Shown here: positions 18,679-50,809 of the stretch, piece after piece
Layout of the letters: each line of letters starts with the position of its first letter
Position numbering within the stretch: the first letter of the stretch is position 1
NCBI RefSeq assembly: GCF_900637295.1
Contig: NZ_LR134363.1
Coordinates: 1,302,001-1,366,000 of the forward strand
DNA length: 64,000 bases
DNA from: Actinomyces slackii
Lineage (GTDB): Bacteria > Actinomycetota > Actinomycetes > Actinomycetales > Actinomycetaceae
Reading direction: 5' to 3'
Position numbers and translations under genes: made by a program
The notes under the pieces: model-generated
What the model saw: only the letters and a program-made list of their open reading frames with translations
Told to the model about the DNA's origin: nothing
Database searches by the model: none

Positions 18679-19770
18679 GTGAGCGAACCATTGATCCTCG
18701 GCATCGAGTCGACCTGCGACGAGACCGGCGTGGCCCTGGTGCGCGGCCGCGAGCTCCTGGGTGACGTCACGGCCACCTCCATGGACGAGTACGCCCGCTA
18801 CGGCGGCATCATCCCCGAGATCGCCTCGCGCGCCCATCTGGAGTCCTTCCTCCCCACCCTCGACGCCGCCCTGGAGCGGGCCGAGGTGGACCTGGGGGAG
18901 GTCGACGCCATCGCCGTCAGCGCCGGGCCCGGGCTCGTGGGCTCCCTGACCGTGGGCATCACAGCGGCCAAGGCCTTGGCCGTCTCACTGGGCAAGCCCA
19001 TCTACGGGGTCAACCATGTCATCGGGCACCTGGCCGTTGACGAGCTCGTCACCGGACCCCTGCCCGAGCGCTTCATCGGCCTCATCGTCTCAGGAGGCCA
19101 CTCCAACCTGCTGAGCATCGGGGATATCGCCACCGACGTCGTCGAGCTGGGCGGGACCCTGGATGATGCCGCGGGAGAGGCCTTCGACAAGGTCGGCCGG
19201 CTGCTGGGCCTGCCCTACCCCGGCGGCCCGCATGTCGATCGCCTGGCCCGCGAGGGGGACCCCGGGGCGATCCGCTTCCCCCGGGGGCTGGCAGCGGCCA
19301 AGGACAGGGAGCGCCACCGCTACGACTTCTCCTTCTCGGGGCTCAAGACCGCGGTGGCCCGCTATATCGAGTCCCTCCAGGACGCGGGTCGGGAAGTGCC
19401 CCAGGCCGACGTCTGCGCGGGCTTCTCCGAGGCCGTCAACGACTCCCTGACCGCCAAGGCCGTGGCCGCCTGCCAGGCGGCCGACTGCTCGACCCTGGTG
19501 GTGGGCGGGGGATTCTCCGCCAACTCCCGCCTGCGCGAGCTCGCCGCCCAGCGCTGCCAGGAGGCGGGGATCGAGCTGCGCATCCCGCCGTTGCGCTACT
19601 GCACGGACAACGGCGCCCAGATCGCGGCCCTCGGGGCGGCTGCGGTGCGAGCCGGGGTCGAGCCCTCGCCCCTGGACTTCGCCCCCGATTCATCGATGCC
19701 ACTGGACACCATCGTGGCGGGCTCGCCCACGGCGCCAGGCTCGCCCACGGTGCCAGGTGCGCCGAGGTAG
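18679..19770 (+). CDS. tsaD: tRNA N6-adenosine threonylcarbamoyltransferase
   Basis: TsaD transfers the threonylcarbamoyl group from TC-AMP to A37 of tRNA. The 363-residue protein starts ILGIESTCDETGVALV, binds metal through HVIGH in the HxxxH motif, and has SGGHSNL and the KTAVARY segment of the ASKHA fold. The GTG at 18679 is chosen because homology starts there and TAGGCT lies seven bases upstream. The C-terminal tail (SPTAPGSPTVPGAPR) is repetitive, and its TAG stop codon lies inside a copy of the 71 bp palindromic element. The sdhCAB operon separates it from tsaB-rimI. Confidence 0.95.
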   Translation: MSEPLILGIESTCDETGVALVRGRELLGDVTATSMDEYARYGGIIPEIASRAHLESFLPTLDAALERAEVDLGEVDAIAVSAGPGLVGSLTVGITAAKALAVSLGKPIYGVNHVIGHLAVDELVTGPLPERFIGLIVSGGHSNLLSIGDIATDVVELGGTLDDAAGEAFDKVGRLLGLPYPGGPHVDRLAREGDPGAIRFPRGLAAAKDRERHRYDFSFSGLKTAVARYIESLQDAGREVPQADVCAGFSEAVNDSLTAKAVAACQAADCSTLVVGGGFSANSRLRELAAQRCQEAGIELRIPPLRYCTDNGAQIAALGAAAVRAGVEPSPLDFAPDSSMPLDTIVAGSPTAPGSPTVPGAPR

Positions 19771-19831
19771 ACATTTCCCGCCGAGGTCGACGCATTCACC
19801 GTCAATCTCGGCGGACAATGTCTACCTCGGC
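19761..19831. repeat. Dispersed palindromic element, copy A
   Basis: The outer arms GCCGAGGTAGACATT and AATGTCTACCTCGGC pair; the inner arms pair with a few mismatches, so this is the most decayed of five copies. The loop reads GACGCATTCACCGTC, the reverse complement of the loop in the other copies, so the element is inverted here. It supplies the TAG stop of tsaD and lies between convergent genes. Confidence 0.85.
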
Positions 19832-19867
19832 GAAGGGGGTGCGCGGCGAAGAGCGCGCGGCGAGAGG

Positions 19868-21106
19868 TCAGCGCGGCGAGGAGTGGACCGGCGTGGCCGA
19901 GGCCAGCACCTCGGTGGGGCGCAGGGGCCGCCCGGCGCGGGCCTCGGCCAGGAGCAGGCGGACCGCCGCCTCCCGCATGCCCCCGGCAGCACCCACCGCC
20001 GCGATCTGGCGCTGGTAGGAGGCCCCCGCCTCCAGGGTCGCCCGCACGCCGTCGAGCTCGGCGGCGCAGCCCAGGTCCTCAGCCACCGGCTCCAGATCGC
20101 GGAGCATGCGCTCCACCGTGTCCGTGACCAGCTCCTCCTCGCCCGCGGCATTGACGATGAGGATCGCATCCATGCCGTAGCGGGCCGAGCGCCACTTGTT
20201 CTCCGCCACATACCAGTCGGGCAGGGAGTCAATGGGCCGACCGGCATCGAGCCGGCGCGAGAGGTCCTCGACCAGGCACTGCGTCAGAGCGGCGATCCCC
20301 GCCAGCTCGGTGAGGTTGGTCGCCGCATCGCAGGACCTCACCTCGATGGTCCCCAGGCGCGGGGAGGGGCGCACATCCCAGCGGATCTCCGTGAAGTCCT
20401 CGATGACACCGGTGTGGATGAGGTCCCCGGTGTAGTTCTCCAGCTCCTCCCACGCGCTGAACTGGTGGGGCGCCCCGGCAGTGGGCAGCTGCTGGAACAT
20501 CATGGCCCGGTTGTCCGCATAGCCCGTGTCAGCACCGGCCCAGAAGGGCGAGGAGGCCGACAGGCACTGCAGGTGAGCTGTGCGGGTGAGCAGCCCCTGG
20601 AGGATCGGCAGGACCTTGGCGCGGTCCTCAACCCCCACATGGACGTGGGTGCCGAAGATCAGCATCTGGTGGCCCCACAGGCGCGTGCGATCCACCAGGC
20701 GCGCGTAGCGATCGGCGTCGGTGACCTTCTGCACCAGGGGATCGGCGAAGGGATGGGTCCCGGCCGAGCCCAGATCCACGCGCAGGCGATCGGTGACCGG
20801 CAGCACCCGGTCGAAGGCGAAGGCCAGGTCCTCCATGCACTGGCCCACCGTGGCGCGGGCCCCCGAGACCAGCTCCACCGTGTTGAGCATCATCTCGCCG
20901 TGGACGTGCGGGTCCTGCCCGACCTCGGCCAGCACCTCGGCGGCGCACTGGCGCAGGTCCAGGCTGTCGCGGTCGATGAGGGCCAGCTCCCACTCCACCC
21001 CCAGGGTGGAGCGCGGGGAGTCGTTGAAGCGCAGCGGGTGGTGGTGCGGGCCGCTGGCGGCCGAGGGGCCGGCTCCCCGGCCCGCTGGGTATGCGGATGC
21101 GCTCAT
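19868..21106 (-). CDS. Carboxylate-amine ligase, YbdK/GCS2 family
   Basis: The 412-residue protein belongs to the glutamate-cysteine ligase-like GCS2 family (YbdK, EgtA-related). It shows the N-terminal TLGVEWELALID with the acidic ATP/Mg ligands, GTHVHVGVED and the SSPFWAGADTGYADNRAMMF segment. Such enzymes join an amine to the gamma-carboxylate of glutamate, but the actual partner is not known for most YbdK proteins. The ATG at 21106 is preceded by AGGAAGG; a longer frame to 21130 is less likely. It is downstream of the methyltransferase gene on the same strand with a 56-base gap. Confidence 0.85.
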   Translation of the reverse strand: MSASAYPAGRGAGPSAASGPHHHPLRFNDSPRSTLGVEWELALIDRDSLDLRQCAAEVLAEVGQDPHVHGEMMLNTVELVSGARATVGQCMEDLAFAFDRVLPVTDRLRVDLGSAGTHPFADPLVQKVTDADRYARLVDRTRLWGHQMLIFGTHVHVGVEDRAKVLPILQGLLTRTAHLQCLSASSPFWAGADTGYADNRAMMFQQLPTAGAPHQFSAWEELENYTGDLIHTGVIEDFTEIRWDVRPSPRLGTIEVRSCDAATNLTELAGIAALTQCLVEDLSRRLDAGRPIDSLPDWYVAENKWRSARYGMDAILIVNAAGEEELVTDTVERMLRDLEPVAEDLGCAAELDGVRATLEAGASYQRQIAAVGAAGGMREAAVRLLLAEARAGRPLRPTEVLASATPVHSSPR

Positions 21107-21162
21107 GGCACGTGTCCTTCCTGGCGGCACTCGGCCCCGAGCCCCGGTGGGCCTCGGGCGGG

Positions 21163-22443
21163 CTACTGGTCGTCGTCTGTCAGGGCGCGGGGATCGTCGG
21201 CCTGATCGGGCTCGACGACGAGGACCGCCCCCTTGGCCCCCCGCCCCAGGCGGGTCAGGATCCAGGTCTCCGCGGCCTCGCCCCGCGGCTTGAGGGAGGC
21301 GCGCAGCGCGTCAGGGGAGACGTCGACGCCGCGCTTGTGGATCTCCAGGCGGCCGATGCCGCGCTCGCGGACGCGGGATCGCAGCCCCTTGAGGCGCAGG
21401 GGCAGGACCTCGGTGATCCGCCAGCTGCGCACGAAGGGGGCCAGGTGGTCGGGCGGGGGCGCATCGCCGGTCAGGTAGGCGATGCGCGGCCCCACGGGCT
21501 GGGCATCCATTCCCCGGGCCAGGTGGGGCACGAGGCCGGCGCGGATGGCGGCGCCGTCGGGCTCGTGGATGAGGGGGCCCAGGTCCTGCGGCGAGGCGAT
21601 GGGCTCGAGCTGCTCGGGCGGCGCGGAGGGATCGTCCACCGATGGGTCGGCCAGGGTATGAGCGGAGGCGCCCGCGCCCAGCACGAGGGCGGAGCGCCCC
21701 GGGCCCTCGGGGGCCAGGGGGCCGCACCAGATGGCGGCCTCGACAACCTCTCCGGCCACCGAGACCCACTGGACGTGGGCGTCGTCGGGCAGGGCCGCGT
21801 GGTCGATGCCGGGGGCGACCTTGACCCCCAGGGCCGGGACGCGCTCGCGCAGCGCCAGGATGCTGCTCAGTGCCGGGGACCAGTCCTCGGGGTCGGTGAG
21901 GCGCCTGCCGGCGGCGCGGCGGGCGGGGTCGGCGAAGACCGCGTCGATGCCGGCGGCCTCCATGTCGACCTCCAGGGCGTCGGCGCAGCGCACCTCGGCG
22001 TGGGGGAAGTGCATGAGGTTGACGGTGGCCAGCGCCGCGGTGGCCTCATCGCGCTCCACGGCCAGGACGGGCAGGTCCAGGCCGGCCAGCGCCATCGCGT
22101 CCCCGCCGATCCCGCAGCCCAGGTCGGCCACCCTCTGCGCCCCGGCAGCGGCGTAGCGGGCGGCGTGATGGGCGGCCACCTCCAGGCGGGTGGCCTGCTC
22201 CAGGCCGTCAGGGGTCAGCAGCATGGAGGAGGCGAAGGGCCCGAACTTGGACTGGGCGCGGGCCCGCAGGCGCTGCTGGGTCAGCCCGGCGGCCACCAGG
22301 GCGGGGGAGTGGCCCTGCTCGCGCAGGGACCTGCCCAGGGCCAGGGCCTCACCGGGGTCATAGGGCGGAAGGGAGGCCAGGAAGGCCCAGCCCTCCGGGG
22401 TCAGGAGCAGGGCGGCGTGCGAGCCGGCGGATGAATCGGTCAT
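21163..22443 (-). CDS. Class I SAM-dependent methyltransferase with THUMP-like domain
   Basis: The 426-residue protein has the SAM-binding motif ADLGCGIGGDAMALA at about residues 106-120, followed by LAVERDE and a DAVFADPARR motif resembling the catalytic NPP-type loop. The N-terminal 95 residues are helical, and the C-terminal third matches the THUMP-like extension seen in this actinobacterial family. The substrate is not known; an RNA or nucleobase target is suggested by the domain. It is divergent from groES and shares a strand with the YbdK-like gene, probably as an operon. Confidence 0.75.
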   Translation of the reverse strand: MTDSSAGSHAALLLTPEGWAFLASLPPYDPGEALALGRSLREQGHSPALVAAGLTQQRLRARAQSKFGPFASSMLLTPDGLEQATRLEVAAHHAARYAAAGAQRVADLGCGIGGDAMALAGLDLPVLAVERDEATAALATVNLMHFPHAEVRCADALEVDMEAAGIDAVFADPARRAAGRRLTDPEDWSPALSSILALRERVPALGVKVAPGIDHAALPDDAHVQWVSVAGEVVEAAIWCGPLAPEGPGRSALVLGAGASAHTLADPSVDDPSAPPEQLEPIASPQDLGPLIHEPDGAAIRAGLVPHLARGMDAQPVGPRIAYLTGDAPPPDHLAPFVRSWRITEVLPLRLKGLRSRVRERGIGRLEIHKRGVDVSPDALRASLKPRGEAAETWILTRLGRGAKGAVLVVEPDQADDPRALTDDDQ

Positions 22444-22557
22444 CGCCGCCCATCATCCCATGTGAGACGACCCCGCGCGCCGCAGGCCGGGGGTCGGCAG
22501 GGCGCGCCAGCGGCGCCGGGACAGGGCTGACGCCCGTGGCGAAACGACGACACGTCG

Positions 22558-22584
22558 TTGGCACTCGCGTTGACTGAGTGCTAA
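22558..22584. promoter_or_regulatory. CIRCE operator (HrcA site)
   Basis: TTGGCACTC, nine bases, then GAGTGCTAA differs from the consensus CIRCE inverted repeat at a single position. It overlaps the groES promoter, so HrcA should repress groES until heat shock. Confidence 0.92.
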
Positions 22585-22598
22585 CGACGTCGTAGATT
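22570..22598 (+). promoter_or_regulatory. groES promoter
   Basis: TTGACT (22570-22575) and TAGATT (22593-22598) are separated by 17 bases. The -35 lies inside the CIRCE spacer and right arm. The transcript would have a leader of about 180 bases before groES. Confidence 0.8.
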
Positions 22599-22786
22599 CT
22601 GCGCAGGCGCATGGCTCACCCACCCTGCCATGGTCTGGCATTCGCCCAGGTCAGGCACGGTTGGATGGGCTGTGCGACTCGCACTCCCAGTGTCGGGCCG
22701 ACCCCCGCGACGGCGGCCGGGCACAGCCCGGGAGGGCGAACAAGCCGTTCCACCGCACGCTGACAAGCGAGAAGGGGAGGTCCGCA

Positions 22787-23083
22787 ATGTCGATCTCCAT
22801 CAAGCCGCTGGAGGACCGCGTCGTCGTCCAGACGGTTGAGGCCGAGCAGACCACCGCATCGGGTCTGGTCATCCCTGACACCGCTCAGGAGAAGCCCCAG
22901 GAGGGCAAGGTCGTGGCCGTGGGCCCGGGTCGGGTCGACGACTCCGGCAACCGCGTCCCGGTCGACGTCGCCGAGGGCGACGTGGTCATCTACTCCAAGT
23001 ACGGGGGCACCGAGGTCAAGTACGCCGGTGAGGACTACCTCATCCTCTCGGCCCGCGACATCCTGGCGGTCGTCACCAAGTGA
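22787..23083 (+). CDS. groES: Co-chaperonin GroES
   Basis: The 98-residue protein is the lid of the GroEL folding chamber. It has the typical start [14 protein letters not shown], the mobile loop [19 protein letters not shown] and the C-terminal [18 protein letters not shown] 22787 follows GGGGAGG. Control is by CIRCE. Unusually, no groEL follows: a strong hairpin closes the transcript 50 bases downstream and the next 0.9 kb is non-coding. Confidence 0.97.
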
Positions 23084-23133
23084 TCGCATGCTCGCCCCGA
23101 GCCGGCTCGGGGCGATGCCTCCGGCGATAGCAT

Positions 23134-23187
23134 CGCGCAGCGTTGAGGGGCGACCACCAGATGGTGGTCGCCCCTCAACGCTGCGCG
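23134..23187 (+). terminator. Terminator hairpin after groES
   Basis: A 26 bp perfect stem with a two-base loop: CGCGCAGCGTTGAGGGG pairs with CCCCTCAACGCTGCGCG, extended inward by CGACCACCA/TGGTGGTCG. It ends the single-gene groES transcript. Confidence 0.8.
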
Positions 23188-23349
23188 AGTCAATGCCGCG
23201 CGAGATGAGTGAGCCTCTCTCATCGGGGTGGGGTGCAGGGGGGGGCGGTTCAGCGGGTCGTGCGCGTGCGGGCCGTGGTCCTGGCGCGACCACCCGAACC
23301 TCAGGCTCGACCTGCGGATCATGCGAGTGCGGGCCGCGGTCCTGGGCAT

Positions 23350-23583
23350 GGGGCGGCGGGCGTGCCGTGCCGCATGATCCTGAGTGCGATCGGCGGGGGC
23401 GACGCCGGGGCGGCGGGCGTGCCGTGCCGCATGATCCCGAGCGCGATCGGCGGGGGCGACGCCGGGGCGGCGGGCGTGCCGTGCCGCACGATCCCGAGCG
23501 CGATCGGTGGGGCGACGCCGGGGCGGCGGGTGTGCCGTGCCGCACGATCCCGAGTGCGATCGGTGGGGCGACGCCGGGGCGGC
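23350..23583 (+). repeat. Tandem array of four 56-57 bp units
   Basis: Units begin GGGGCGGCGGG at 23350, 23407, 23464 and 23520 (periods 57, 57, 56) and a partial fifth begins at 23576. Each contains GTGCCGTGCCGCAYGATCC and a GCGATCGG core. The units differ at a few positions, and the one-base length change between early and late units breaks any reading frame, so the array is unlikely to encode protein. Confidence 0.8.
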
Positions 23584-23585
23584 TC

Positions 23586-23757
23586 GGACGAGCCTTTGCG
23601 TCGTCGACGAACCTTTGCGTCAATCACCCCTGTGCTAACCCCAGTCCGATGACGCGAACCCTCGTCCGATACGCAGACCCTCGTCCGGTACGCAGGCGCA
23701 CGTCGTCGGCGCGAACCTTCGTCCGGTACGCAGACCCACGTCGTCGGCGCGAACCGG
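23586..23757 (+). repeat. Short interspersed repeats
   Basis: CGTCCGGTACGCAG and near copies recur at least three times, alternating with GTCGTCGGCGCGAACC and, earlier, GAACCTTTGCGTC. These follow directly after the tandem array. Their role is unknown. Confidence 0.6.
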
Positions 23758-23976
23758 CGCTCCGGCCTCCCATCGCTGGGCGGCGCCAGCATCACTGGGC
23801 GGCACGCAGGGGCGCCCCGCCCGAGGCCGGGGTCCCGGTCGCCCATGTCCGCCGGGGCGGCATCCAGGGGCGGCATCCCACCTACTCGCCGACCCCGACG
23901 AGAAAGGCTCGATGAGGCCCTGGTGCTTTCCCCCGGTGAATTCCGTTTTTGTGCGGAATGGTGAGGGGCTGCGCGA

Positions 23977-24282
23977 TTAGGCCGGCTCGTTGGGGATCGT
24001 GCGGCGCGCCCGGCGCTCATAGTGCGCGCGACGCTCGTCCTCGCTCATTCCTCCCCACACCCCATAGGGCTCATGGGTGCGCAGCGCATGGTCTCGGCAC
24101 TGAGCGATCACCGGGCAGCGCTCGCACACGGCCTTGGCCCGCTCGTCCCGCCTGTGCCGCGCGCTTCCGCGCTCGCCCTCGGGGTGGAAGAACATCGACG
24201 AGTCCATGCCGAGGCATGCCCCCTGGTACTGCCACTCCCACAGTGCGGAGATCGGGCCCGGCAGACGCGAGCTGTCATGCAT
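23977..24282 (-). CDS. WhiB family iron-sulfur transcriptional regulator
   Basis: The 101-residue protein has the four cluster-binding cysteines C23, C53, C56 and C62 (C-x29-C-x2-C-x5-C), the beta-turn motif GVWGG after them, and a basic C-terminal tail (RRAHYERRARR) for DNA contact. Wbl proteins bind a [4Fe-4S] cluster and act with the principal sigma factor; they occur only in actinobacteria and their phages. The start at 24282 follows AAGGGGGGGAT. Position next to groES and before guaB resembles the whiB3 site of mycobacteria, but subfamily assignment is uncertain. Confidence 0.93.
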   Translation of the reverse strand: MHDSSRLPGPISALWEWQYQGACLGMDSSMFFHPEGERGSARHRRDERAKAVCERCPVIAQCRDHALRTHEPYGVWGGMSEDERRAHYERRARRTIPNEPA

Positions 24283-26126
<1,844 letters not shown>

Positions 26127-26162
26127 GGCCTCCTGAGGCCGGCGGGCCCCGCCCGCCCCGGC

Positions 26163-26936
26163 TCAGAGCTCGGGCAGAGGCCAGGAGGTCTGGGCGCCGG
26201 GGCGAGAGGGGTTCTTCCTGGCCAGCCACTCGTTGAAGCTCGTGGCCCACTGGTGGTGCGCCCGGGCCTGCCAGTCCAGGAGCTCGGCCGCCGACAGCCC
26301 GGCGAGCTCGGGGTGGGCCGCCACCAGGGCCTCCAGGACATCCAGGGTGGCGGCCACGTCCACCTCCGCCGTGTGCAGGGCCGCATCGACACCGACCCCG
26401 TAGACCTCGCACAGATCCGACAGGCGGCGCTTGCCGCGACGGTAGCGGTCCACGGCGCGGTCCAGGACGAGGGGATCGGCGATCGGCCCCAGCTGGCCGC
26501 CCAGGCGCCGGCGCAGGGTGTCCAGGCCGTGGCGGGCGAGCTCGGACTCGATGAGGGTCAGGTCGAAGGAGCCGTTGAAGGCCGCCACCGGTGTTCCCCG
26601 GGACATCGCCTGAGCCAAGCGGGAGGCCACCTCCTCCAGCACCTCCACCACCGGGCGGCCCTCGGCGCGGGCCCGCTCGGTGCTCACGCCATGGACGGCC
26701 GCGGCCGCCTCAGGGATCTCCACGCCCGGGTCGGCCAGCCAGGAGCGCACCTCCTGGTGGCGCGTGCCATCGGCGCGGCGCGGCCCGCGGGAGACCAGGG
26801 CGGCGGTGACCAGGCGGTCCCGGGTGGGATCGACCCCGGTGGTCTCCGTGTCGAAGCCCAGCAGGGGGCCGTCGATCCAGGAGTCGGGCCGGGTGGGCGC
26901 AGTGGGCGGGGACTGCGGGTCGAGCGCATCGTTCAT
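26163..26936 (-). CDS. DnaQ-like 3'-5' exonuclease (DEDDh)
   Basis: The 257-residue protein has the exonuclease motifs of the DEDDh family: Exo I LLGFDTETTG, Exo II AFNGSFDLTLIE, and Exo III with LHTAEVDVAAT. HGVSTERA is the usual segment between I and II. It resembles free-standing polymerase III epsilon-like proteins and may act in repair or RNA/DNA end trimming. ATG 26936 gives the homologous start; CATGCT lies seven bases upstream, again suggesting little or no leader. It sits between guaB and guaB3 in opposite orientation. Confidence 0.85.
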   Translation of the reverse strand: MNDALDPQSPPTAPTRPDSWIDGPLLGFDTETTGVDPTRDRLVTAALVSRGPRRADGTRHQEVRSWLADPGVEIPEAAAAVHGVSTERARAEGRPVVEVLEEVASRLAQAMSRGTPVAAFNGSFDLTLIESELARHGLDTLRRRLGGQLGPIADPLVLDRAVDRYRRGKRRLSDLCEVYGVGVDAALHTAEVDVAATLDVLEALVAAHPELAGLSAAELLDWQARAHHQWATSFNEWLARKNPSRPGAQTSWPLPEL

Positions 26937-27065
26937 GACCAGAAGCATGCCATCGGGCCATGACACGAATGGTCGAATGGCAGTGCGCCCCGGCCGGCCG
27001 ATGACGCACAACACCGACGACGCGCAACACCGGCCGCGCGCGGCGAGGGCCCGGAGGGGCGCGCA

Positions 27066-27071
27066 TAGGAT
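27066..27071 (+). promoter_or_regulatory. -10 element for leaderless guaB3
   Basis: TAGGAT ends six bases before the ATG at 27078; there is no ribosome binding site. Confidence 0.6.
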
Positions 27072-27077
27072 TCCCCC

Positions 27078-33530: not shown

Positions 33531-33536
33531 GCGCGC

Positions 33537-34327: not shown

Positions 34328-34864
34328 ATGACAACGAGCACGGCCCCCACCGCTTCCCTGGCCCTCGGCAGCCTCCCGGCCGATCTCCTCGCCACGCTGC
34401 GCCAGGACATGGCCGCCCACCTGGACTCGGCCATGGGCGTCCTGCGGGGCCTGCGCCGTCGGGTCCCCACGGTGGCGCTCTTCGCCGCCTCGTCGCTGTC
34501 CAGCTGGACCGTGGACTACGTGCTGGTCCTGCTCCTCAACAGCATGACCGACTCCGTCCTGCTGCCGGTGGTCATGGCCAGGCTCGTGTCCTGCACCATG
34601 AACTTCCTCATCAACCGCAGGCTCTTCAATGCCGACCCCGCCACGCTGTGGTCCTCGGCGGCCGGCTACGCCACTGTCCAGAGCAGCGTCATGACGGCCT
34701 CCTACCTCCTCATCGCGGCCCTGCAGAGCGCGGGCGCGCCCCTGTGGCTGGCCAAGATCCTGGCGGACAGCGTGCTCTTCGCCGTCAACTACCTGGTCCA
34801 GTCCCGCCTGGTCTACCGGGCCCGCCGCCTCCCCTCACTCCGCTCACTCCGCCAATTTGCGTGA
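34328..34864 (+). CDS. GtrA-like membrane protein
   Basis: The 178-residue protein has about four membrane helices with the GtrA/DPMS pattern (ALFAASSLSSWTVDYVLVLLL, ARLVSCTMNFLINRRLFN, and near the end KILADSVLFAVNYLVQSRLVY). GtrA-like proteins are linked to polyprenyl-phosphate sugar flipping and wall glycosylation. CAGGGT lies six bases before the ATG, as at other leaderless genes. The last codons and the TGA stop fall inside a 72 bp perfect palindrome, so the C-terminus QFA is encoded by that element. Confidence 0.8.
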   Translation: MTTSTAPTASLALGSLPADLLATLRQDMAAHLDSAMGVLRGLRRRVPTVALFAASSLSSWTVDYVLVLLLNSMTDSVLLPVVMARLVSCTMNFLINRRLFNADPATLWSSAAGYATVQSSVMTASYLLIAALQSAGAPLWLAKILADSVLFAVNYLVQSRLVYRARRLPSLRSLRQFA

Positions 34865-34917
34865 GTTCGTACTTTTCCGGGCCCGGAAAAGTACGAACTC
34901 ACGCAAATTGGCGGAGT
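34846..34917. repeat. 72 bp perfect palindrome without spacer
   Basis: The left half, starting ACTCCGCCAATTTGCG and ending TACTTTTCCGGG, is mirrored exactly by the right half, starting CCCGGAAAAGTA and ending CGCAAATTGGCGGAGT. All 36 pairs match and there is no loop. It lies between convergent genes, supplies the stop of the GtrA-like gene, and ends six bases before the ackA stop. It could act as a two-way terminator. It is unrelated in sequence to the five dispersed elements. Confidence 0.95.
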
Positions 34918-34922
34918 CAGGG

Positions 34923-41800: not shown

Positions 41801-41850
41801 GAGTGTCCTTCTGTCCTCGGTGACGGATGGGGGGTTGTGTCTCATAGCGA

Positions 41851-42030: not shown

Positions 42031-42099
42031 CCGAGGTAGACGTTTTCCGCCGAGGTCGACGGTGAATGCGTCTACCTCGGCGGAAAACGTCTACCTCGG
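42031..42099. repeat. Dispersed palindromic element, copy B
   Basis: The arms CCGAGGTAGACGTTTTCC and GGAAAACGTCTACCTCGG pair perfectly, with a second inner pair CCGAGGTCGACG/CGTCTACCTCGG and loop GTGAATG. The G-C pair in GACGTTTTCC/GGAAAACGTC replaces the A-T pair found in copies C and E. The TAG stop of the lacI-family gene (42091-42093) lies inside it. Confidence 0.9.
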
Positions 42100-43143: not shown

Positions 43144-43252
43144 ATCGTTCCTGACGTGCGGTGATTGAGGACGGTGTGGGGCATTCTACTTGTGTCGCGA
43201 AGGCCTCAGGCCGCGCGCCGCCGTCCGGGCACGCGGTCGTCCGGGCCACACC

Positions 43253-43323
43253 GCCGAGGTCGACATTTTCCGCCGAGGTCGACGGCGAATGCGTCGACCT
43301 CGGCGGAAAATGTCTACCTCGGC
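43253..43323. repeat. Dispersed palindromic element, copy C
   Basis: The outer arms GCCGAGGTCGACATTTTCC and GGAAAATGTCTACCTCGGC pair with one mismatch; the inner arms CCGAGGTCGACG/CGTCGACCTCGG pair perfectly around GCGAATG. It lies between the transporter gene's 3' end and the lacI-family gene's 5' end. Confidence 0.9.
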
Positions 43324-43390
43324 GAGCTCAGGAGGGTGGGCTCGGCGGGTCCGACGGCGATCCCGCCAGTCCCGATGCCGATCCGGTGGC

Positions 43391-45019
43391 TCACGCGTAG
43401 CGCTGCTGGAACTCCTCCTCCAGCTCCTCCAGTGAGGAGTACTTGGTCTCGGGGACCCTGCGGATCATGTAGATCACCGCCACGACGTTGATGATGGAGA
43501 AGATGAGGTAGGTGGCCACCGGCCCCAGCTTGTCCATCATGATGGGGAAGAGGAAGGTGATGATGGCATTGACCACCCACAGGCACAGGACCGCGAAGCC
43601 CATGGCGGCCCCACGCATGCGTGCGGGGAAGAGCTCGGACATGATGACCCAGGTCCCCGGAGCATTGCCGCCCTGCATGAAGAGCATGTAGACGATGATG
43701 ACCACGACCACGAGATAGGGGATCAGTGCTGGCATCGTGCTCAGCACATTGCCGGCCTCATCGAGATGCGGGTTGATGCCGAACAGGAAGAGCGCCGTCA
43801 TCACCCACAGCATGACCGTCAGCCCCACGGTCCCGCCGATGAGCACTGCTCGGCGGGAGAATCTCAGGAGGAGCCACAGGCCCAGGGATGATCCGATCAC
43901 TGAGGCCACACCGGTCAACACGGTCAGAGTGATCGCCGCCTCGGTGCCGAATCCGGCGTTCTGCAGGATCTTGGGGGCGTAGTACATCATGGTGTTCACG
44001 CCGGTGGTCTGGTTGAACACGCCCACCAAGACCCCGATGATGAGCACCCGGCGCGTCCAGCGCGTGGAGAAGCAGCGTGCCAGGGTCCACTGCTCCTGCG
44101 TGGCCTCGCGGCGGTTGACCTCGATCATCTCATCGATCTCGCCGGCGATGTCATCGTCCTCCTTGCGCACGCGCTTGAGGTCGGCGATGGCTTTGGCGTA
44201 GTGGTAGTTGGCGGCGTGCCAGCGGGAGGATTCCGGCATCATGCGCATGCCCAGCCACAGGGCGATGGCTGGAATGGAGCAGATGACCAGCATGTAGCGC
44301 CAGGTCTCGCCATTGCCGCCGTCGACGGTCACGTAGTCGGACACGGCTTTGAGCGCGTCCCAGGAGTAGGTCTGGCCGACCTCGACCACGGTTGCCTGAC
44401 CGTCGACGGTGATGGTCTGCTGCCCCTCGACTGCGGTGACCGTGGCCTCGGGGCCGCCGCTGAGTCGGGCGATGCCGGCGTTCATGGCGAAGGCCAGGAA
44501 CTGCCCGGTGACGATCATGAGCTGGTCGATGCCCACCAGGGTGCCGCGGATGGACTTGGGCGCGGTCTCGGCGAGATAGACCGGCACGGTCGCCGAGGCC
44601 CCGCCCACGGCCAGGCCCAGGATGAAGCGCGCGATGTAGAGCACCCAGATGTTGGGGGAGAAGGTGCAGCCCATGGCGCCGATGAAGAACACGACGGCGA
44701 GAAGGAGGATGTTGTGCCGGCGCCCGTACTGGTCCGACAGGCGTCCCCCGAAAAAGGCCCCCAGGGCGCAGCCGCCCAGAAGGGTGGCACCGACCAGGCC
44801 CTCCTCGGTGGAGTTCAGGTGCATGCCCCCGGCGCCGTGCGGCAGGTACATGTAGGGCAGCGCGCCGGAGATGACGCCTGTGTCGTAGCCGAAGAGCAGG
44901 GAGCCCAGCGTGGCGATGAGGGCGACGAAGCCGACGGAGCGGCGCTTGCCCGACGGCGGGGTCTTCTCAACCAGGTCTTCGATCTCCGCTCGGGTGAGGT
45001 CGGTGGGTGGTGCTGTCAT
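43391..45019 (-). CDS. SP-family MFS sugar/inositol transporter
   Basis: The 542-residue protein has 12 membrane helices and the sugar porter signatures GYDTGVISGALPY, GGRLSDQYGRRHNIL, RFILGLAVGGASATVPVYLAE, PESSRW and the PAMRGAAMG-like PARMRGAAMGF. It is close to inositol or xylose proton symporters such as IolT. About 50 residues are inserted between helices 5 and 6 (about residues 186-238), with a repeated VxxxGQ pattern, and should face outside. ATG 45019 follows AGAAGGA. The LacI-type operator lies 77 bases upstream. Confidence 0.9.
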   Translation of the reverse strand: MTAPPTDLTRAEIEDLVEKTPPSGKRRSVGFVALIATLGSLLFGYDTGVISGALPYMYLPHGAGGMHLNSTEEGLVGATLLGGCALGAFFGGRLSDQYGRRHNILLLAVVFFIGAMGCTFSPNIWVLYIARFILGLAVGGASATVPVYLAETAPKSIRGTLVGIDQLMIVTGQFLAFAMNAGIARLSGGPEATVTAVEGQQTITVDGQATVVEVGQTYSWDALKAVSDYVTVDGGNGETWRYMLVICSIPAIALWLGMRMMPESSRWHAANYHYAKAIADLKRVRKEDDDIAGEIDEMIEVNRREATQEQWTLARCFSTRWTRRVLIIGVLVGVFNQTTGVNTMMYYAPKILQNAGFGTEAAITLTVLTGVASVIGSSLGLWLLLRFSRRAVLIGGTVGLTVMLWVMTALFLFGINPHLDEAGNVLSTMPALIPYLVVVVIIVYMLFMQGGNAPGTWVIMSELFPARMRGAAMGFAVLCLWVVNAIITFLFPIMMDKLGPVATYLIFSIINVVAVIYMIRRVPETKYSSLEELEEEFQQRYA

Positions 45020-45357
45020 GAGAGGGATCCTTCTGTGCGTGCCCGTCTGCTGCGACGAGCGGGTGGTGGGCACGTCCGTGTGCTCCAGACACAAGTTCAC
45101 GCGCGTGAATTGATGTTGTCAATACCCTCTCGTGCTTCGGTCCATCAATGCAGGCGTGCGCGTCCGGATGGCGGTCTTGACTCTCGGCCTTGTGAGCGGG
45201 CTTGGCATGCGGCGCCCCTCCCTCCCTGGAGAGAGGCGCCACCGCGGATTCGAGGGGCACTGCCCGGTGGCCCACTCCTGCCAGTCCCGCCTGGGAGGGG
45301 CACCGCCGCGGGTCCGGAGGCGCTGCCACTCCGGTCTGCCCGGTGGCGCCTGTCGTG
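45020..45357. other. Intergenic region upstream of the transporter gene
   Basis: These 338 bases hold the LacI-type operator at 45096-45109 and presumably the transporter promoter. The rest has several GC-rich inverted segments around CACCGCGG and GGCGCC but no supported gene. Confidence 0.5.
45096..45109. promoter_or_regulatory. LacI-type operator, site 2
   Basis: TTCACGCGCGTGAA is identical to site 1 at 41851-41864 and lies upstream of the SP-family transporter gene. Confidence 0.75.
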
Positions 45358-46050
45358 CTATCGGTGCGATGCGCGGATGCGCGCGACCCGCCGGTTCATG
45401 AGGTGCCGTACGAGGTGCTGGTAGACCCAGCTCTGGATGCCGCTGAGGTTGATGCCATGGCGGGCGTAGAAGTCGTCGGGTGAGTCGAAGGTTCCGAAGT
45501 CGCGGTTGATGCCGGTCTGCTGAATGGCGGTGTCGGTGCCGCACCAGTTCACGGGCGGGTCGGCGAGGCTGTCGGTGCCCACCGCGAAGCCCAGGAACTC
45601 GCCCGTCACTCCCGTCAGGCGACGCACTCCGTCGAGATAGGCCGGATCGCAGATCACGCCTTCAAGACCCGTCCAGCGCTCACCGATGCGCACCTCGGCC
45701 CAGGTGTGCACGATGCTGTCGGGGGCCAGCCGATAGGCGAGACCGGTGACGACGCCCCGCTGGAGGCTCTTGTGGATGGTGGCGCCATGCAGCCGGCACG
45801 GCACGCCCGCCGCTCTCAGTAGCGCCATGAGCAGGATCGTCTTGGTGTTGCATTGCCCATAGCCGTCGGCGAGCACGCGAGACGCGGGCAGGTCGTCCCG
45901 TGCGTTGTACCCGAAGGGCAGCTCGCGGACGAAGTCGTAGACTGCGCCGATCCGCTCGGAGACGGCGAGCTCTCGCCAGCGGCGCTCGCGCACCAGCGGC
46001 TCGACGGCGGGCAGGTCGAGCAGGCGGGTCTCACGCAGGTGGGGGTCCAT
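45358..46050 (-). CDS. Transglutaminase-like superfamily protein
   Basis: The 230-residue protein has the transglutaminase/protease core triad: Cys in GYGQCNTKTILLMALLRAAGV, His in IVHTWAEV, and Asp in VICDPAYLD. Members are often thiol proteases or amidases. No signal peptide or membrane helix is seen, so it is cytoplasmic. It lies 53 bases downstream of an AraC-type regulator on the same strand but also has its own TAGCCT -10 six bases before the ATG. The substrate is unknown. Confidence 0.8.
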   Translation of the reverse strand: MDPHLRETRLLDLPAVEPLVRERRWRELAVSERIGAVYDFVRELPFGYNARDDLPASRVLADGYGQCNTKTILLMALLRAAGVPCRLHGATIHKSLQRGVVTGLAYRLAPDSIVHTWAEVRIGERWTGLEGVICDPAYLDGVRRLTGVTGEFLGFAVGTDSLADPPVNWCGTDTAIQQTGINRDFGTFDSPDDFYARHGINLSGIQSWVYQHLVRHLMNRRVARIRASHR

Positions 46051-46056
46051 GCGTTG

Positions 46057-46062
46057 AGGCTA
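46057..46062 (-). promoter_or_regulatory. -10 element for leaderless transglutaminase-like gene
   Basis: On the minus strand TAGCCT ends six bases before the ATG at 46050; no ribosome binding site is seen. Confidence 0.5.
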
Positions 46063-46103
46063 GGAGCACCCGGGGGACGCGGTCTTGAACGTTCCGGCTG
46101 ACC

Positions 46104-46823
46104 TCATGGCCAGTTGTCGACACTCGTGGTCATGCGCAGCAACTGCGACGGCGGCAGTCCGACGTTGCGGCGAAAGACCCGGGACAGGTGAGCCCCGTCG
46201 CTGAAACCGCTGTGGGCGGCGGCGTCGGCAAGGCCCGCGCCACGCGCTATGGCCTCCACGGCGGTGCGCAGCCGTACCCACAGTGCGTAGCGCCGAAACG
46301 GTATACCCACCTCTGCGGTGAACCGGTGAGTCAGGCGCGACGGCGACAGGTGCGCGGCCCGAGCCGCGCGACTGAGGGAGGCAAGGGAGGCGTCGGGGCC
46401 GCTGGCGTGCTCGTCGAGATGGCGCAGCGCGGCGTCCACGGCAGGCGAAAGGTCGACGGGCTTGGCCCGCCCGATGATCGCCTCCACCACATCGGCTGGA
46501 GTCCCCGAGACCGGCACATCCGCAGGCGCCGTCGGCAGCCCGCCGACCCGTCGACCGCGGGGGCCATACGGCTCCACAAGCAGCAGCGTCAACTCACCCT
46601 GACAGCTGAGTCGGTGCCTTTGCCCGCTGGGCACCATCAGGGTCTCTCCGACGGGGACCTCGGTGAGACCGTCGCTCGTCTCCACTTCGCACGGCCCGCC
46701 GCTGGCCACGATGACCTGGATGGCCAGGTGCTGGTGCCAGTGCGCAACGCCTCCGGGCCCGCGATAGACGACGGCGCCGGGCAGCAGATCCAGTCCTCCG
46801 CTCCACGGCTCCGGTCGTCCCAT
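46104..46823 (-). CDS. AraC family transcriptional regulator
   Basis: The 239-residue protein has an N-terminal cupin-like sensor domain (YRGPGGVAHWHQHLAIQVIVA, PSGQRHRL) and a C-terminal double helix-turn-helix (SLSRAARAAHLSPSRLTHRFTAEVGIPFRRY, GLADAAAHSGFSDGAHLSRVFRRNVG). The ATG at 46823 has no ribosome binding site but is six bases after TAGGGT. Palindromic element D begins just upstream of that hexamer, so any -35 contacts would fall within the repeat. It probably controls the transglutaminase-like gene downstream. Confidence 0.88.
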   Translation of the reverse strand: MGRPEPWSGGLDLLPGAVVYRGPGGVAHWHQHLAIQVIVASGGPCEVETSDGLTEVPVGETLMVPSGQRHRLSCQGELTLLLVEPYGPRGRRVGGLPTAPADVPVSGTPADVVEAIIGRAKPVDLSPAVDAALRHLDEHASGPDASLASLSRAARAAHLSPSRLTHRFTAEVGIPFRRYALWVRLRTAVEAIARGAGLADAAAHSGFSDGAHLSRVFRRNVGLPPSQLLRMTTSVDNWP

Positions 46824-46829
46824 GCACCG

Positions 46830-46835
46830 ACCCTA
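46830..46835 (-). promoter_or_regulatory. -10 element for araC-type gene abutting repeat D
   Basis: TAGGGT (minus strand) ends six bases before the ATG and touches the edge of palindromic element D at 46836. Confidence 0.55.
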
Positions 46836-46904
46836 CCGAGGTAGACGTTTTCCGCCGAGGTAGACGTCGAGTGCGTCTACCTCGGCGGAAAACGTCTACC
46901 TCGG
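46836..46904. repeat. Dispersed palindromic element, copy D
   Basis: The outer arms CCGAGGTAGACGTTTTCC/GGAAAACGTCTACCTCGG and inner arms CCGAGGTAGACG/CGTCTACCTCGG all pair perfectly; the loop is TCGAGTG. Like copy B it has the G-C variant in the outer stem. It lies between the iolE 3' end and the araC-type gene's start. Confidence 0.9.
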
Positions 46905-46942
46905 CGGCAGGGGGGCGGCGGGGCCGGCGGGGCCGCCGGGGG

Positions 46943-47869
46943 TCAGGAGGCGAACAGCGTGTCCTCCAGGTAGTTGCGCGCGATGCGGGCGTAGGTCAGG
47001 GGGTTGGCGATGGCCGGGTCCTGCTCGGCCTCGACCAGGATCCAGTCGCGGTAGCCGTGGTCCACCAGGAAGCGGTAGGGCTCGGTGAAGTCGATGGTGC
47101 CGTCCCCGGGGACGGTGAACATGCCCGCGAGGAAGGAGTCCAGGAAGGAGCGCTGGGCCTGGCGCGACTCCTCCATCTTCTCGGGGCGCACATCCTTGAA
47201 GTGGACGTGCTTGATCCTCTCGATGGTGGCGCGCAGCAGACCCATGACATCGCCGTCGCCCACGAAGGCATGGCCGGTGTCGAAGAGCAGGGAGACCAGG
47301 GCGGGGTCGGTCGCCTCCATGAGGCGGATCGTCTCCTCCTTGGTCTGGACCACCGTGCCCAGGTGGTGGTGGTAGACCAGCTCCAGGCCGTGGGACTGGG
47401 CGATCTCCCCCAGGCGGTTGAGGCCCTCGGCCAGGACGGGCCACTCCTCATCGCTCAGCACGGGCTTGTTCTCGAAGATGCACACATCGCGCTTGCCCTG
47501 GACCGAGCCGGTCTGCTCCGAGACCACCACGCGGGTCGCGCCCAGGAACTGCAGGTACTCGCAGGTCGCCGTGAAGTCGGGGACGACGGCGTCGATCCCG
47601 TCGCGCACGATGAAGGAGGAGAACCACTGGGCCACGATCCGGATCCCGCGAGCATCCGCGGCCGCCTTGACCTCCTCCTTGGGCGGGAAGAAGCCGGCGC
47701 ACTCGGTGCCGGCGTAGCCGGTGTCGGCCAGGTCCAGGAGCATGTCCTCCAGGGTGTTCCAGGCGCCCACCTCCGGGATGTCATCGTTGCGCCAGCTGAT
47801 GGGGTGCATGCCCCAGGAGATCCCGTTGGGGTCCTTGATGGCGGTGGCGGGATCGAGGGTGAAGGACAT
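46943..47869 (-). CDS. iolE: Myo-inosose-2 dehydratase
   Basis: IolE dehydrates 2-keto-myo-inositol to the trihydroxycyclohexane dione that IolD cleaves. The 308-residue TIM-barrel protein shows GISWGMHPISWRNDDIPEVG near the N-terminus, ELVYHHHLGTVVQT, FDTGHAF, HVHFKDVRPE and PGDGTIDF, all typical. The ATG at 47869 follows AAGGAG. A TTGTCATGACAA site overlaps its promoter (TTGTCA-17-TAGCGT). Confidence 0.93.
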   Translation of the reverse strand: MSFTLDPATAIKDPNGISWGMHPISWRNDDIPEVGAWNTLEDMLLDLADTGYAGTECAGFFPPKEEVKAAADARGIRIVAQWFSSFIVRDGIDAVVPDFTATCEYLQFLGATRVVVSEQTGSVQGKRDVCIFENKPVLSDEEWPVLAEGLNRLGEIAQSHGLELVYHHHLGTVVQTKEETIRLMEATDPALVSLLFDTGHAFVGDGDVMGLLRATIERIKHVHFKDVRPEKMEESRQAQRSFLDSFLAGMFTVPGDGTIDFTEPYRFLVDHGYRDWILVEAEQDPAIANPLTYARIARNYLEDTLFAS

Positions 47870-48223
47870 CGTTGCTCCTTGTGGTGGAAGGGGCGGACTC
47901 GGTCGAGTCCGCGGTTGTCTCGGGCGGTCGGATTGCTGAGCGGGGACTGGCAGGCGGTGCGCGCGCTCCGGTCGTCCTCGACGGCGTCCTGCGCTCCAGT
48001 GCCGCAGAGTCGACGCTAGCAGTCCTGAATTGTCATGACAAGGGACATGTGTCTGGGGCTGATCTCTGGAGGGGCCCAGGGGCACCCGCTCGGCGCCCGG
48101 GCGGCTCGCGGCCCGGTGGTCCGCAGCGCGCCGATGGCACGAGCGCGGGGGCGACGGCGCGCAGGCGAGCCGGCTGAAGCCCTCCCCGGCGCCTGCGCGC
48201 CGGACCGGTCGGGCCCCGTGGGC
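47870..48223. other. Intergenic region upstream of iolE
   Basis: These 354 bases carry the iolE promoter and operator at about 48012-48041; the transcript would have a 140-base leader. No gene was supported. The Gfo/Idh/MocA gene ending at 48224 has no obvious hairpin terminator here. Confidence 0.5.
48030..48041. promoter_or_regulatory. GntR-type (IolR-like) operator, site 1, at iolE
   Basis: TTGTCATGACAA is a perfect palindrome. On the minus strand its first half forms the -35 (TTGTCA), followed after 17 bases by TAGCGT. Confidence 0.75.
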
Positions 48224-49429
48224 TCAGGCGTCGAAGGTGGTGCGCCCCTGGACGCGGGGAACGTCATGCCACTGCCCGTCCGCGGCCGAGGCGACAGCGG
48301 CCTCATCGACCTCCGCGGCGCACCAGGCATCGGCGGCGGAGGGGGCGAGCTGCTCGCCGTTGAGCACCGAGCGCAGGAACTGGGCGGCCTCAACGCACTT
48401 CATGTCGTCAAAGCCCATGGAGGTGCCGATGGCGGGCTGGAAGCGCTGCCACTGGCCCCACTGCGGCCCCGCCATGGCGCGGGTGTAGCCGTGGATGGCT
48501 CCGCCGTCGGCCACCGGGCAGATCTCCAGCTCGTTGAGCCGCTCGAAGTTCCACCGCGCCGAGCCGGAGGTCCCGTAGACCTCGATGACGTACTCGGCGC
48601 GCGGCCCCACGCTCACACGGGAGGACTCCATCGTGCCCACGGCCCCGCCCTCGAAGCGCACGAGCATGGCCACGTAGTCCTCGTTCTCCACCGGCCCCGT
48701 CTCCTCGCCGATCTCGAAGCCGGAGTGGCCGAATCCCACCTTGGTGGGGATGGGGCGCTGGGTGATGAAGGTGTCCGTCATCGCGCTGACCGAGGCGATG
48801 CGCCCCACCACGTACTGGGCCAGATCGGCGCCGTGGCTCATGAGATCGGAGATGACGCCCGCCCCGGCCTTCTCCCGCGAGGCCCTCCAGGTCAGGGGGC
48901 TGTGCGGTGAGGAGTTGTAGTCGGCGATGAGCCAGACGCGCACATTCGTGATCCGGCCCAGCGCGCCGTCGCGCACGAGTTCGCGCAGGTACTCGATGGC
49001 CGGGGTGTGGCGGTAGTTGAAGCCGACGGCGGTGGCCAGCCCAGCCGCCTCGGCCGCCTGGGCGACCCGCCGGGACTGGGCGGCGCTGGTGCCCATGGGC
49101 TTCTCGATCCAGAAGGGCTTGCCGGCCTCGATGGCCGCCAGGGCGATCTCCTCGTGCAGGAAGTTGGGGGCGCAGATGGAGACGACCTCCACCTCGGGAT
49201 CGGCCAGGAGCTCGTGGTAGTCGGCGTAGGCGCGCTCGAAGCCGAGCTCGTGGAGCGCCGCGTCACGGATCTCATCGACCGGATCCGCGGCGGCCACCAG
49301 GCGCGGGGTCACGCCCAGCTCGGGGAAGCGCTCGCGAACGGCCTTGTAGCTGCGGGTGTGGAGGCGGCCCATCCAGCCCAGGGAGACAACCCCGACACCC
49401 AGCGACTTCCGTCCATCCTGCTCAGTCAT
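48224..49429 (-). CDS. Gfo/Idh/MocA family oxidoreductase
   Basis: The 401-residue protein has the NAD-binding motif GVGVVSLGWMGRLHTRSY, the catalytic EKP in FWIEKPMGTS, FNYRHTPAIEYL and a histidine in DLMSHGADL. It resembles scyllo-inositol or other polyol dehydrogenases. The ATG at 49429 follows GAAAGGA. The promoter carries an operator of the same family as iolE (TTGTCC-17-TACGGT), so it belongs to the inositol regulon. It is in the same direction as iolE but has its own promoter. Confidence 0.85.
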   Translation of the reverse strand: MTEQDGRKSLGVGVVSLGWMGRLHTRSYKAVRERFPELGVTPRLVAAADPVDEIRDAALHELGFERAYADYHELLADPEVEVVSICAPNFLHEEIALAAIEAGKPFWIEKPMGTSAAQSRRVAQAAEAAGLATAVGFNYRHTPAIEYLRELVRDGALGRITNVRVWLIADYNSSPHSPLTWRASREKAGAGVISDLMSHGADLAQYVVGRIASVSAMTDTFITQRPIPTKVGFGHSGFEIGEETGPVENEDYVAMLVRFEGGAVGTMESSRVSVGPRAEYVIEVYGTSGSARWNFERLNELEICPVADGGAIHGYTRAMAGPQWGQWQRFQPAIGTSMGFDDMKCVEAAQFLRSVLNGEQLAPSAADAWCAAEVDEAAVASAADGQWHDVPRVQGRTTFDA

Positions 49430-49528
49430 GTCCGGTCCTTTCCGACGGCGATGTCGGGTGCTCTGGTGGCCGACGACGGTGTGAGAACACCTGCCAGCCC
49501 TGCTGATCCTCACCGTAACAGGACTCGT

Positions 49529-49540
49529 ATGTCAGGACAA
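49529..49540. promoter_or_regulatory. GntR-type operator, site 2
   Basis: ATGTCAGGACAA; on the minus strand TTGTCC serves as the -35 with TACGGT 17 bases on, upstream of the dehydrogenase gene starting at 49429. Confidence 0.65.
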
Positions 49541-49681
49541 GGGTGAGTGTGGGCGGTGGTCGCGATGGCCTCTGGGGGCGGCCGGGCCCTGCCGGCGCGG
49601 CCGCCGGGGCGGGGCGGCACGGTAGGATCTGGGCTCATCGGGAGAATTGCCGATGACTGCCCGGGCGAGGAGAGGATATTC

Positions 49682-50737
49682 ATGGCGCGAGGGCGCGATG
49701 GCCGCGTGACGATTGCGACGGTCGCGGCCCGCACGGGCCGCTCCATCTCCACGGTCTCGGCGGCCCTCAACGGCCAGGCCGGGGTGGCGGCCTCCACCCG
49801 CGCCCAGATCCTCCAGGCGGCCCAGGAGCTCGGCTACAGCGCGGACCCGCGCGCCCGCATGCTGCGCCAGCGCCATACCGGGCTCATCGGCGCCAGCTTC
49901 GCCGTCGACCAGGCCTTCCAGGGGCTCATCGTCGACGGGCTCTACCGCGCCTCCTCGGAGCTCGGTCACTCCCTGGTGCTGGCCGCCTCCACCCCGCACC
50001 GCGGCGTCGCCCAGGGCCTGGAGGGCCTGCTCTCCGAGCGCTGCGAGGGGCTCGTCCTCATCGACCCCGATGCCTCCGACCCCGTCCTGACCGCTGCGGC
50101 GCGGCGCGCCCAGACGGTGCTCATCTGCCGCGACACCTCCTTGGAGGATGTTGACGAGGTCAACTCGCGCGACGACGTCGGCGTCACCGCCCTGGTGGAC
50201 CACCTGGTGATGACCGGTCGGCGCGCCATCGTCCATGTCGACGGCGCCAGGCAGACCTCGGCCGCGCCCCGGGTCCGCATCTACTCCCGGGCCATGACCG
50301 AGCACGGCCTGGGCGACCAGGTCCGCGTCCTGCCCGGCGGGGCCGACGAGGAGTCGGGGGCGCGGGCCGTGTGCGCCCTGATGGAGGGGGAGGGCCCGCT
50401 GCCCGAGGCGCTGCTGTGCTTCAACGATCACTGCGCCGTCGGGGCCCTCATGGAGCTTCGCCGTCGGGGGGTCAGGGTGCCTCAGGAGGTCGCCGTCACC
50501 GGCTATGACGGGATCCCGCTGACCGGCGCCTCCTCCTTCAGCCTGACCACGGTGCGCCAGGAGGCCGGGGTGCTGGCGGAGGTCGCCGTGCGGGCCCTGC
50601 TGGCGCGCACGCATCCTGAGCGAGCGGGGCAGATGCCCGCGGGCGTGGTGCGCCGGGAGCGCGAGCTGGGGGGTTCGACCTACTCGGTCATGCCCAGTCT
50701 TCTCATCCGGGACACGACGGCGCCCCGGCACGCTTGA
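49682..50737 (+). CDS. LacI family transcriptional regulator (second)
   Basis: The 351-residue protein has a LacI-type helix-turn-helix (VTIATVAARTGRSISTVSAALNGQAGVAASTRAQILQAAQELGYS) and a sugar-binding sensor domain. The ATG follows GAGGAGAGGA. It is divergent from the dehydrogenase gene at 48224-49429 and convergent with iolG, with a dispersed palindromic element at its 3' end. Its operator was not identified; the inositol promoters around it instead carry GntR-type sites. Confidence 0.87.
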   Translation: MARGRDGRVTIATVAARTGRSISTVSAALNGQAGVAASTRAQILQAAQELGYSADPRARMLRQRHTGLIGASFAVDQAFQGLIVDGLYRASSELGHSLVLAASTPHRGVAQGLEGLLSERCEGLVLIDPDASDPVLTAAARRAQTVLICRDTSLEDVDEVNSRDDVGVTALVDHLVMTGRRAIVHVDGARQTSAAPRVRIYSRAMTEHGLGDQVRVLPGGADEESGARAVCALMEGEGPLPEALLCFNDHCAVGALMELRRRGVRVPQEVAVTGYDGIPLTGASSFSLTTVRQEAGVLAEVAVRALLARTHPERAGQMPAGVVRRERELGGSTYSVMPSLLIRDTTAPRHA

Positions 50738-50738
50738 C

Positions 50739-50809
50739 GCCGAGGTAGACATTTTCCGCCGAGATCGACGGTGAATGCGTCTATCTCGGCGGAAAATGTC
50801 TACCTCGGC
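50739..50809. repeat. Dispersed palindromic element, copy E
   Basis: The outer arms GCCGAGGTAGACATTTTCC/GGAAAATGTCTACCTCGGC pair perfectly. The inner arm CCGAGATCGACG faces CGTCTATCTCGG: the A-T pair replaces the G-C pair of the other intact copies, a compensatory change. It fills the space between two convergent genes, starting two bases after the LacI-type gene stop. Confidence 0.92.

Follow-up and report, generated by a model that had tools for sequence, protein, structure and literature searches.

What are five long palindromes doing in a stretch of an Actinomyces slackii chromosome, and what has multiplied them? The window, i.e. the whole 64,000-nucleotide stretch analysed, covers bases 1302001–1366000 of the single 3,220,508-base contig of this 3.22-Mb genome, and its palindromes, here termed elements A–E, turned out to belong to a repeat family that is linked to one gene lying outside it. 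Relatives of this partner gene are enclosed by a pair of repeats at 27 of 29 testable loci in the genus, compared with none of 204 control genes (30 loci were fetched, one of which lay at a contig edge; a repeat-pair score of at least 25 was required). We consider it fairly probable that A–E are dispersed non-autonomous repeats with a single nuclease-like partner gene elsewhere on the chromosome, the product of which probably spreads them.

Element A: 19761–19831, + strand, 71-bp palindrome at a convergent gene junction
Element B: 42031–42099, − strand, 69-bp palindrome behind a LacI-like gene
Element C: 43253–43323, − strand, 71-bp palindrome about 66 nt 3′ of a sugar-transporter gene (stop at 43391)
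Element D: 46836–46904, − strand, 69-bp palindrome about 36 nt 3′ of an AP_endonuc_2 gene (stop at 46943)
Element E: 50739–50809, − strand, 71-bp palindrome at a convergent gene junction
Partner gene: about G000:C1:1280181–1281167 (G000 being the own genome; locus L041), 328 aa, 21 kb left of the window

The strand given for an element is the one that reads CATTC in its loop or, for element D, the loop variant CACTC.

A gene bracketed by repeats

Two repeat copies flank the partner gene in the own genome, where it is located between rpsQ and rplN, two genes that are normally adjacent. The same gene is found in strains WE8B-23 (G003) and S64C (G006) and in genomes G029 and G031, as in the own genome each time on a segment of about 1.1 kb delimited by neighbouring copies, and one long open reading frame lies between the repeats in the loci that we read. 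By our own score, at least one copy is a hairpin in 21 of the 27 bracketed loci and both copies are in 17, the rest being diffuse arrays. Bracketing extends beyond the family to Tsukamurella and Collinsella, where three of the four relatives are enclosed, the Collinsella one by palindromes. At L059 (G025:C47, about 37.6–38.7 kb), a distant relative of the partner (61 bits) is likewise flanked by a repeat, specific to G025 (score 49); this may indicate that the weak tail of the partner-protein family belongs to the system too.

The encoded protein has an AbiEi-like N-terminal part; of the 29 members, 13 match PADLOC AbiEi models (best 3.7e-11) and three match Pfam AbiEi_1 (best 8e-6). Its C-terminal part carries a PD-(D/E)XK-type motif, in which E217, E259 and D261 are invariant and D248 and K265 nearly so across 29 sequences. 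Among the matches listed in a profile search, 45 of the 49 genus genomes have relatives, comprising a strong class (27 genes, each scoring 320 bits or more, from 21 genomes), a middle class at about 160–208 bits and the weak tail. The gene had no match in phages, and none was confirmed in viral contigs.

Dispersal, dialects and co-occurrence

A search beyond the five copies, which the sequence-only reading had proposed, confirmed a dispersed family: in the own genome, 32 full-length copies are accompanied by one of 35 bp that consists of the inner unit only (n=33). Two weak model matches (G000, 111799 and 723296) looked unrelated on visual inspection and were excluded. The five-copy model matches 15 of 59 genomes searched (own genome included), every one of them in the own genus, and a broader model, R2, matches 25 of the 49 genus genomes with very uneven counts of 1 to 100 (both strands summed, up to 100 candidates being scored per genome). 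Repeat sequences differ widely between lineages, each set forming a dialect. An exact 22-mer of the own dialect was absent from genome_contigs and viral_contigs, two sets that possibly exclude the own genome's near records; this dialect had no match in phages and two partial ones in plasmids (covering 48 % and 37 % of the element at E 0.5). At the corresponding gene ends of relatives (12 cases for B, 4 for C, 20 for D and 18 for E), visual inspection showed no own-dialect element but often a different hairpin, and the D junction of G018 and G070 carries the G018 dialect.

Despite this divergence in sequence, the best internal self-match falls at 18–22 bp in 18.8 of 23 dialects, with 6.1 expected (one chosen copy per dialect, related dialects included). 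Several bracketing dialects are themselves dispersed, mostly 3′ of stop codons, namely that of the own genome, the Actinomyces oris dialect and those of G029 and G031, and the dialects of G018, G007 and G027 recur at further loci; those of G013, G036, G008, G025, G067, G032, G030 and G009 were found at no site outside the partner-gene loci in a scan mostly of those loci. The Collinsella record (six stretches, about 300 of 900 kb) has palindromes around the gene and in five further clusters, two of which are convergent, two tandem behind a stop and one in a divergent gap according to the record's annotation. Copies lie nearer to dnaA than a uniform distribution would place them in G000 (p 1e-4), G029 (4e-6), G031 (0.006) and G069 (0.002); with clusters collapsed, the respective values are 0.006, 6e-4, 0.18 and 0.007, and the effect in G031 is lost.

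Repeat and gene also tend to occur together. The strong-class gene is present in 16 of the 25 genomes with R2 matches versus 5 of the 24 without (Fisher p 0.004), and the five R2-negative carriers (G013, G018, G032, G004 and G067) have dialects that differ from R2. Similarity between proteins correlates with similarity between repeats (Mantel r 0.33, p 0.0005, kinship still included). The 29 loci form 15 groups that have no flanks in common over about 1.1 kb, while G027 and G060 share flanks with G018 and carry different dialects, a pattern that fits relocation and dialect change in place alike.

Placement at gene ends and stem pairing

All five near-perfect palindromes described by the sequence-only reading are present where it had placed them. 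With at most one mismatch, the core CCGAGGTMGAC occurs 38 times in the window versus 4.99 ± 2.09 times in shuffled sequence. Each arm does contain two cores, as claimed, with starts 19 bp apart instead of 20, and the supposedly conserved loop GTGAATG holds for A (on the reverse strand), B and E, with GCGAATG in C and TCGAGTG in D. Rfam returned no match in the window at gathering scores. Elements A and E are positioned between convergent genes, and B, C and D each lie 3′ of one gene. A TsaD-like gene stops at 19770 on the TAG of element A itself, facing a GCS2-like gene that ends at 19868; similarly, the TAG of element B is the stop of the LacI-like gene (42091). The AP_endonuc_2 gene upstream of D encodes a xylose isomerase-like TIM barrel, and E is flanked by a LacI-like gene (+ strand, stop at 50737) and a Gfo/Idh/MocA gene (− strand, stop at 50822), the convergence of which is confirmed by Pfam.

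Genes were called with a home-made codon-usage caller, except in the Collinsella and Tsukamurella records. The terminator-like placement suggested earlier is supported genome-wide, with 32 of the 33 own copies situated just 3′ of a stop codon (14 convergent, 18 tandem behind one gene, 1 in a 5′/5′ gap) and ten gene stops formed by the same TAG within an element. Measured against the window's intergenic space, convergent sites are over-represented (p 5e-6) and divergent ones under-represented (p 7e-4). The A. oris dialect, located by a pattern search of the named genomes, behaves alike: its 49 placed sites (one element counted twice, 5 with no gene called on one side, 4 more at stretch ends) include 31 convergent, 13 tandem and 0 divergent ones, such that all 44 placements with genes on both sides lie behind stop codons. 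Among 17 full-length tandem copies in the own genome, CATTC is on the strand of the upstream gene in 13, on the opposite strand in 2 and undetermined in 2 (p 0.007). No U-tract follows the elements, with at most three T in the following 8 nt on any of 64 sides, and the classical form of an intrinsic terminator, a hairpin plus a U-tract, is therefore not seen.

Such placement would be expected if the palindromes were just strong 3′-end hairpins acting as bidirectional terminators, spread and homogenised by ordinary recombination, with the bracketed gene being a harmful one insulated on both sides. Orthologous gene ends in relatives do bear other hairpins, and neighbouring copies have flank sequence in common, as after conversion. 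However, we regard this explanation as unlikely in view of the absent U-tract and of the two copies that separate rpsQ from rplN within the spc ribosomal operon; it also leaves the joint change of bracketing repeat and gene across many lineages unexplained. Another idea is that the protein is an AbiEi-kind DNA-binding regulator or defence protein, and that the palindromes are operators or marks multiplied as its regulon. While the AbiEi matches and the operator-like arrangement of the cores, tandem and inverted, would suit such a protein, the copies lie behind stops and not before genes (5′/5′ gap: 1/33 own copies, 0/44 in the A. oris dialect), and we rate a regulon as improbable.

The base changes between copies had been read as compensatory. 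Base-pair swaps between B/D and C/E exist, but compensatory change as a rule was not borne out within the genome. Of the 891 cells in 27 loop-orientable copies, 804 pair, compared with 797.7 ± 4.5 when the arms are re-paired randomly (p 0.10, or 0.06 with two local duplicates removed); across all 32 full-length copies, unoriented, a weak excess appears (958/1056 versus 942.7 ± 5.2, p 0.004), and none of the 8 variable pairs is significant alone (Fisher p 0.14 to 1). The same test on the A. oris dialect gave p 0.063 for 51 distinct copies and 0.27, 0.55 and 0.24 for single genomes. Between dialects (24 copies from 10 genomes), both members have changed in 22 of 33 pairs, and pairing is kept in 93.8 % of cells versus 76.7 % after shuffling; most of these copies came from a structure-model search, which is biased towards paired arms. 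Base changes with pairing maintained, from which selection had been argued, are thus clear between species dialects only. As random re-pairing within the genome does almost as well and pairing between dialects is held, the palindromes endure as lineages diverge, although single copies show no clear compensation of one pair member by the other. Selection at the RNA level via G-U pairs was considered and found to be unsupported, since the tandem copies read with their upstream gene show more A-C mismatches (20) than G-U (9), along with 17 others.

Several further features of these gene ends were recorded. Toxin–antitoxin modules, vapBC-like and parDE-like, lie between element pairs at convergent junctions at the following sites:

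L143, 1775–2570: toxin–antitoxin module between an element pair
L170, 664–1377: toxin–antitoxin module between an element pair
L153, 4359–5073: toxin–antitoxin module between an element pair
L151, 6953–7678: toxin–antitoxin module between an element pair

In G006 and G023, two elements enclose the parDE module, whereas G003, G065 and G060 have a single element at this junction. We rejected a reading of these modules as integron cassettes, the vapBC copies of two strains being the same locus and recombination loss between direct copies explaining the parDE pattern equally well. At L143, the neighbouring copies at about 1710 and 2571 share the element together with about 85 nt of the 3′ end of the upstream gene, which is conversion-like. 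In the window, a second long palindrome at 34843–34920 (39-nt arms, 97 % complementary, loopless) occupies a convergent gene junction; its core recurs as an inverted pair in L051 (5703–5748) of the own genome, and it may therefore represent another dialect. Short tandem arrays adjoin one another at 23339–23568 (four copies of units of about 57 bp) and 23653–23747 (19/38-bp units).

Proposed mechanism and relation to known systems

We propose that the AbiEi-like/PD-(D/E)XK-type protein would recognise the cores, which are spaced by about 19–20 bp within an arm and oppositely oriented in the two arms, and would cut or nick the palindrome or a target, after which the repeat could spread by repair from another copy or by hairpin re-insertion, as is thought for homing endonucleases or for the REP-associated tyrosine transposases (RAYTs) of repetitive extragenic palindromes (REPs). 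Insertions would survive chiefly at gene 3′ ends because a long hairpin may be harmless or useful there, as a bidirectional terminator or mRNA end. Protein and repeat would drift jointly and so give rise to lineage-specific dialects, and repeats could outlast a lost protein. The linkage itself is established, whereas nuclease activity and mobilisation are what we infer. Together, repeats and gene have the look of a novel repeat system, either selfish or co-opted. For the more far-reaching proposal, that of an undescribed class of intragenomic replicator in Actinomycetota, in which tandem-core palindromes colonise gene 3′ ends, are propagated by a resident AbiEi-type nuclease and co-evolve with it as lineage dialects in a non-Y1 counterpart of REP/RAYT, we see the odds as even.

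A number of observations weigh against propagation by the partner protein. One genus relative (G062) is without a bracket and another (G061) has only a wider one, its second copy lying about 1 kb behind the gene; two of three Tsukamurella relatives are bracketed by repeats without a clear hairpin and the third is unbracketed. Nine of the 25 R2-positive genomes are without a strong-class gene, among them G059 (84 R2 matches, both strands) and G069 (47). Taken singly, just 10 of the 23 dialects show the core spacing at a shuffle p of at most 0.05. Domain matches to the nuclease part are very weak (DUF559 0.03 and MTES_1575 0.06, one member each), no solved-structure relative of the protein was found, and a structure model of the WE8B-23 protein from a two-sequence alignment (pLDDT 34) was left unused; the gene copies of WE8B-23 and S64C look damaged. 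Neither insertion at strain level, target duplication nor activity was seen.

The sequence-only reading had raised REP-like elements or small elements mobilised by a transposase elsewhere, and a linked Y1 transposase was therefore looked for. None was found in the 49 genus genomes (PF01797), the control search being positive in 5 of 14 named genomes. The REP-like description fits in organisation, with dispersed extragenic palindromes of which two flank one enzyme-like gene, and fails in the transposase; the protein linked to the repeats belongs to a different type (AbiEi-like, carrying a PD-(D/E)XK-type motif) and is encoded outside the window. Could the elements instead resemble miniature inverted-repeat transposable elements, as miniatures of an insertion sequence or of an integron-like recombinase, now lost or not found? 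Their long, near-perfect inverted arms, the in-element TAG shared by ten gene stops and the parDE pattern would agree with this. Yet no Y1 transposase was found in the 49 genomes (other transposase families were not searched for), nor any integron integrase above cut-off (TIGR02249, general tyrosine-recombinase scores only), and half-palindrome matches in the own genome almost all come in pairs one element apart, so that no larger element with these ends was seen. We attach very little probability to such an origin.

Because no Y1 transposase was found, we do not file the elements under REP/RAYT. REP and REPIN sequences together with RAYT genes, as in REPtrons (PMC3116915, PMC3733652, PMC8049555), share with the present system dispersed extragenic palindromes of lineage-specific sequence that also flank an enzyme gene. 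In contrast, the elements here are about 70 bp long with two cores per arm, and the partner combines AbiEi-like sequence with a PD-(D/E)XK-type motif. According to PMC3733652, REP classes carry an end tag, GTAG in one class or CGTC, whereas GTAG lies within the core of the own dialect and is not common to the other dialects in the alignment.

REP/RAYT is the standing example of short bacterial palindromes kept with one enzyme gene. If mobilisation by the partner protein is true, the system would be better described as a new class. A second protein class, unrelated to RAYTs but arranged in the same way, would suggest more than one origin of this lifestyle, and a group of unexplained AbiEi/DUF559-like genes of Actinomycetota would gain a role. 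The roughly 20 protein–repeat pairs, not all of them independent, lend themselves to direct tests of recognition and co-evolution, and the system may explain the large differences in gene ends between related species of these bacteria.

AbiEi-type (type IV) toxin–antitoxin systems, in which AbiEi shares an operon with its toxin partner AbiEii, resemble the present one through the AbiEi domain matches in part of the partner family, one Tsukamurella relative being annotated as AbiEi; they differ from it in that the partner has the C-terminal PD-(D/E)XK-type motif, the bracketing repeats and one long open reading frame between them. Free-standing homing endonucleases of the Vsr-like fold offer a further comparison, as nuclease-like genes that, we infer, might spread their surroundings by cutting and repair, although nearly all palindromes here are without the gene and cutting is only putative. 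DNA uptake sequences of Neisseriaceae occur as inverted pairs in terminators. Their dialects, as described in PMC3630211, are likewise lineage-specific repeats found partly at gene ends, but here there are tens of copies and a linked gene. In the accessible parts of the literature searched, subscription papers and preprints aside, no link of such palindromes to AbiEi/DUF559-like genes in Actinobacteria is described. The organisation is one already known, while the DNA architecture and the protein are not.

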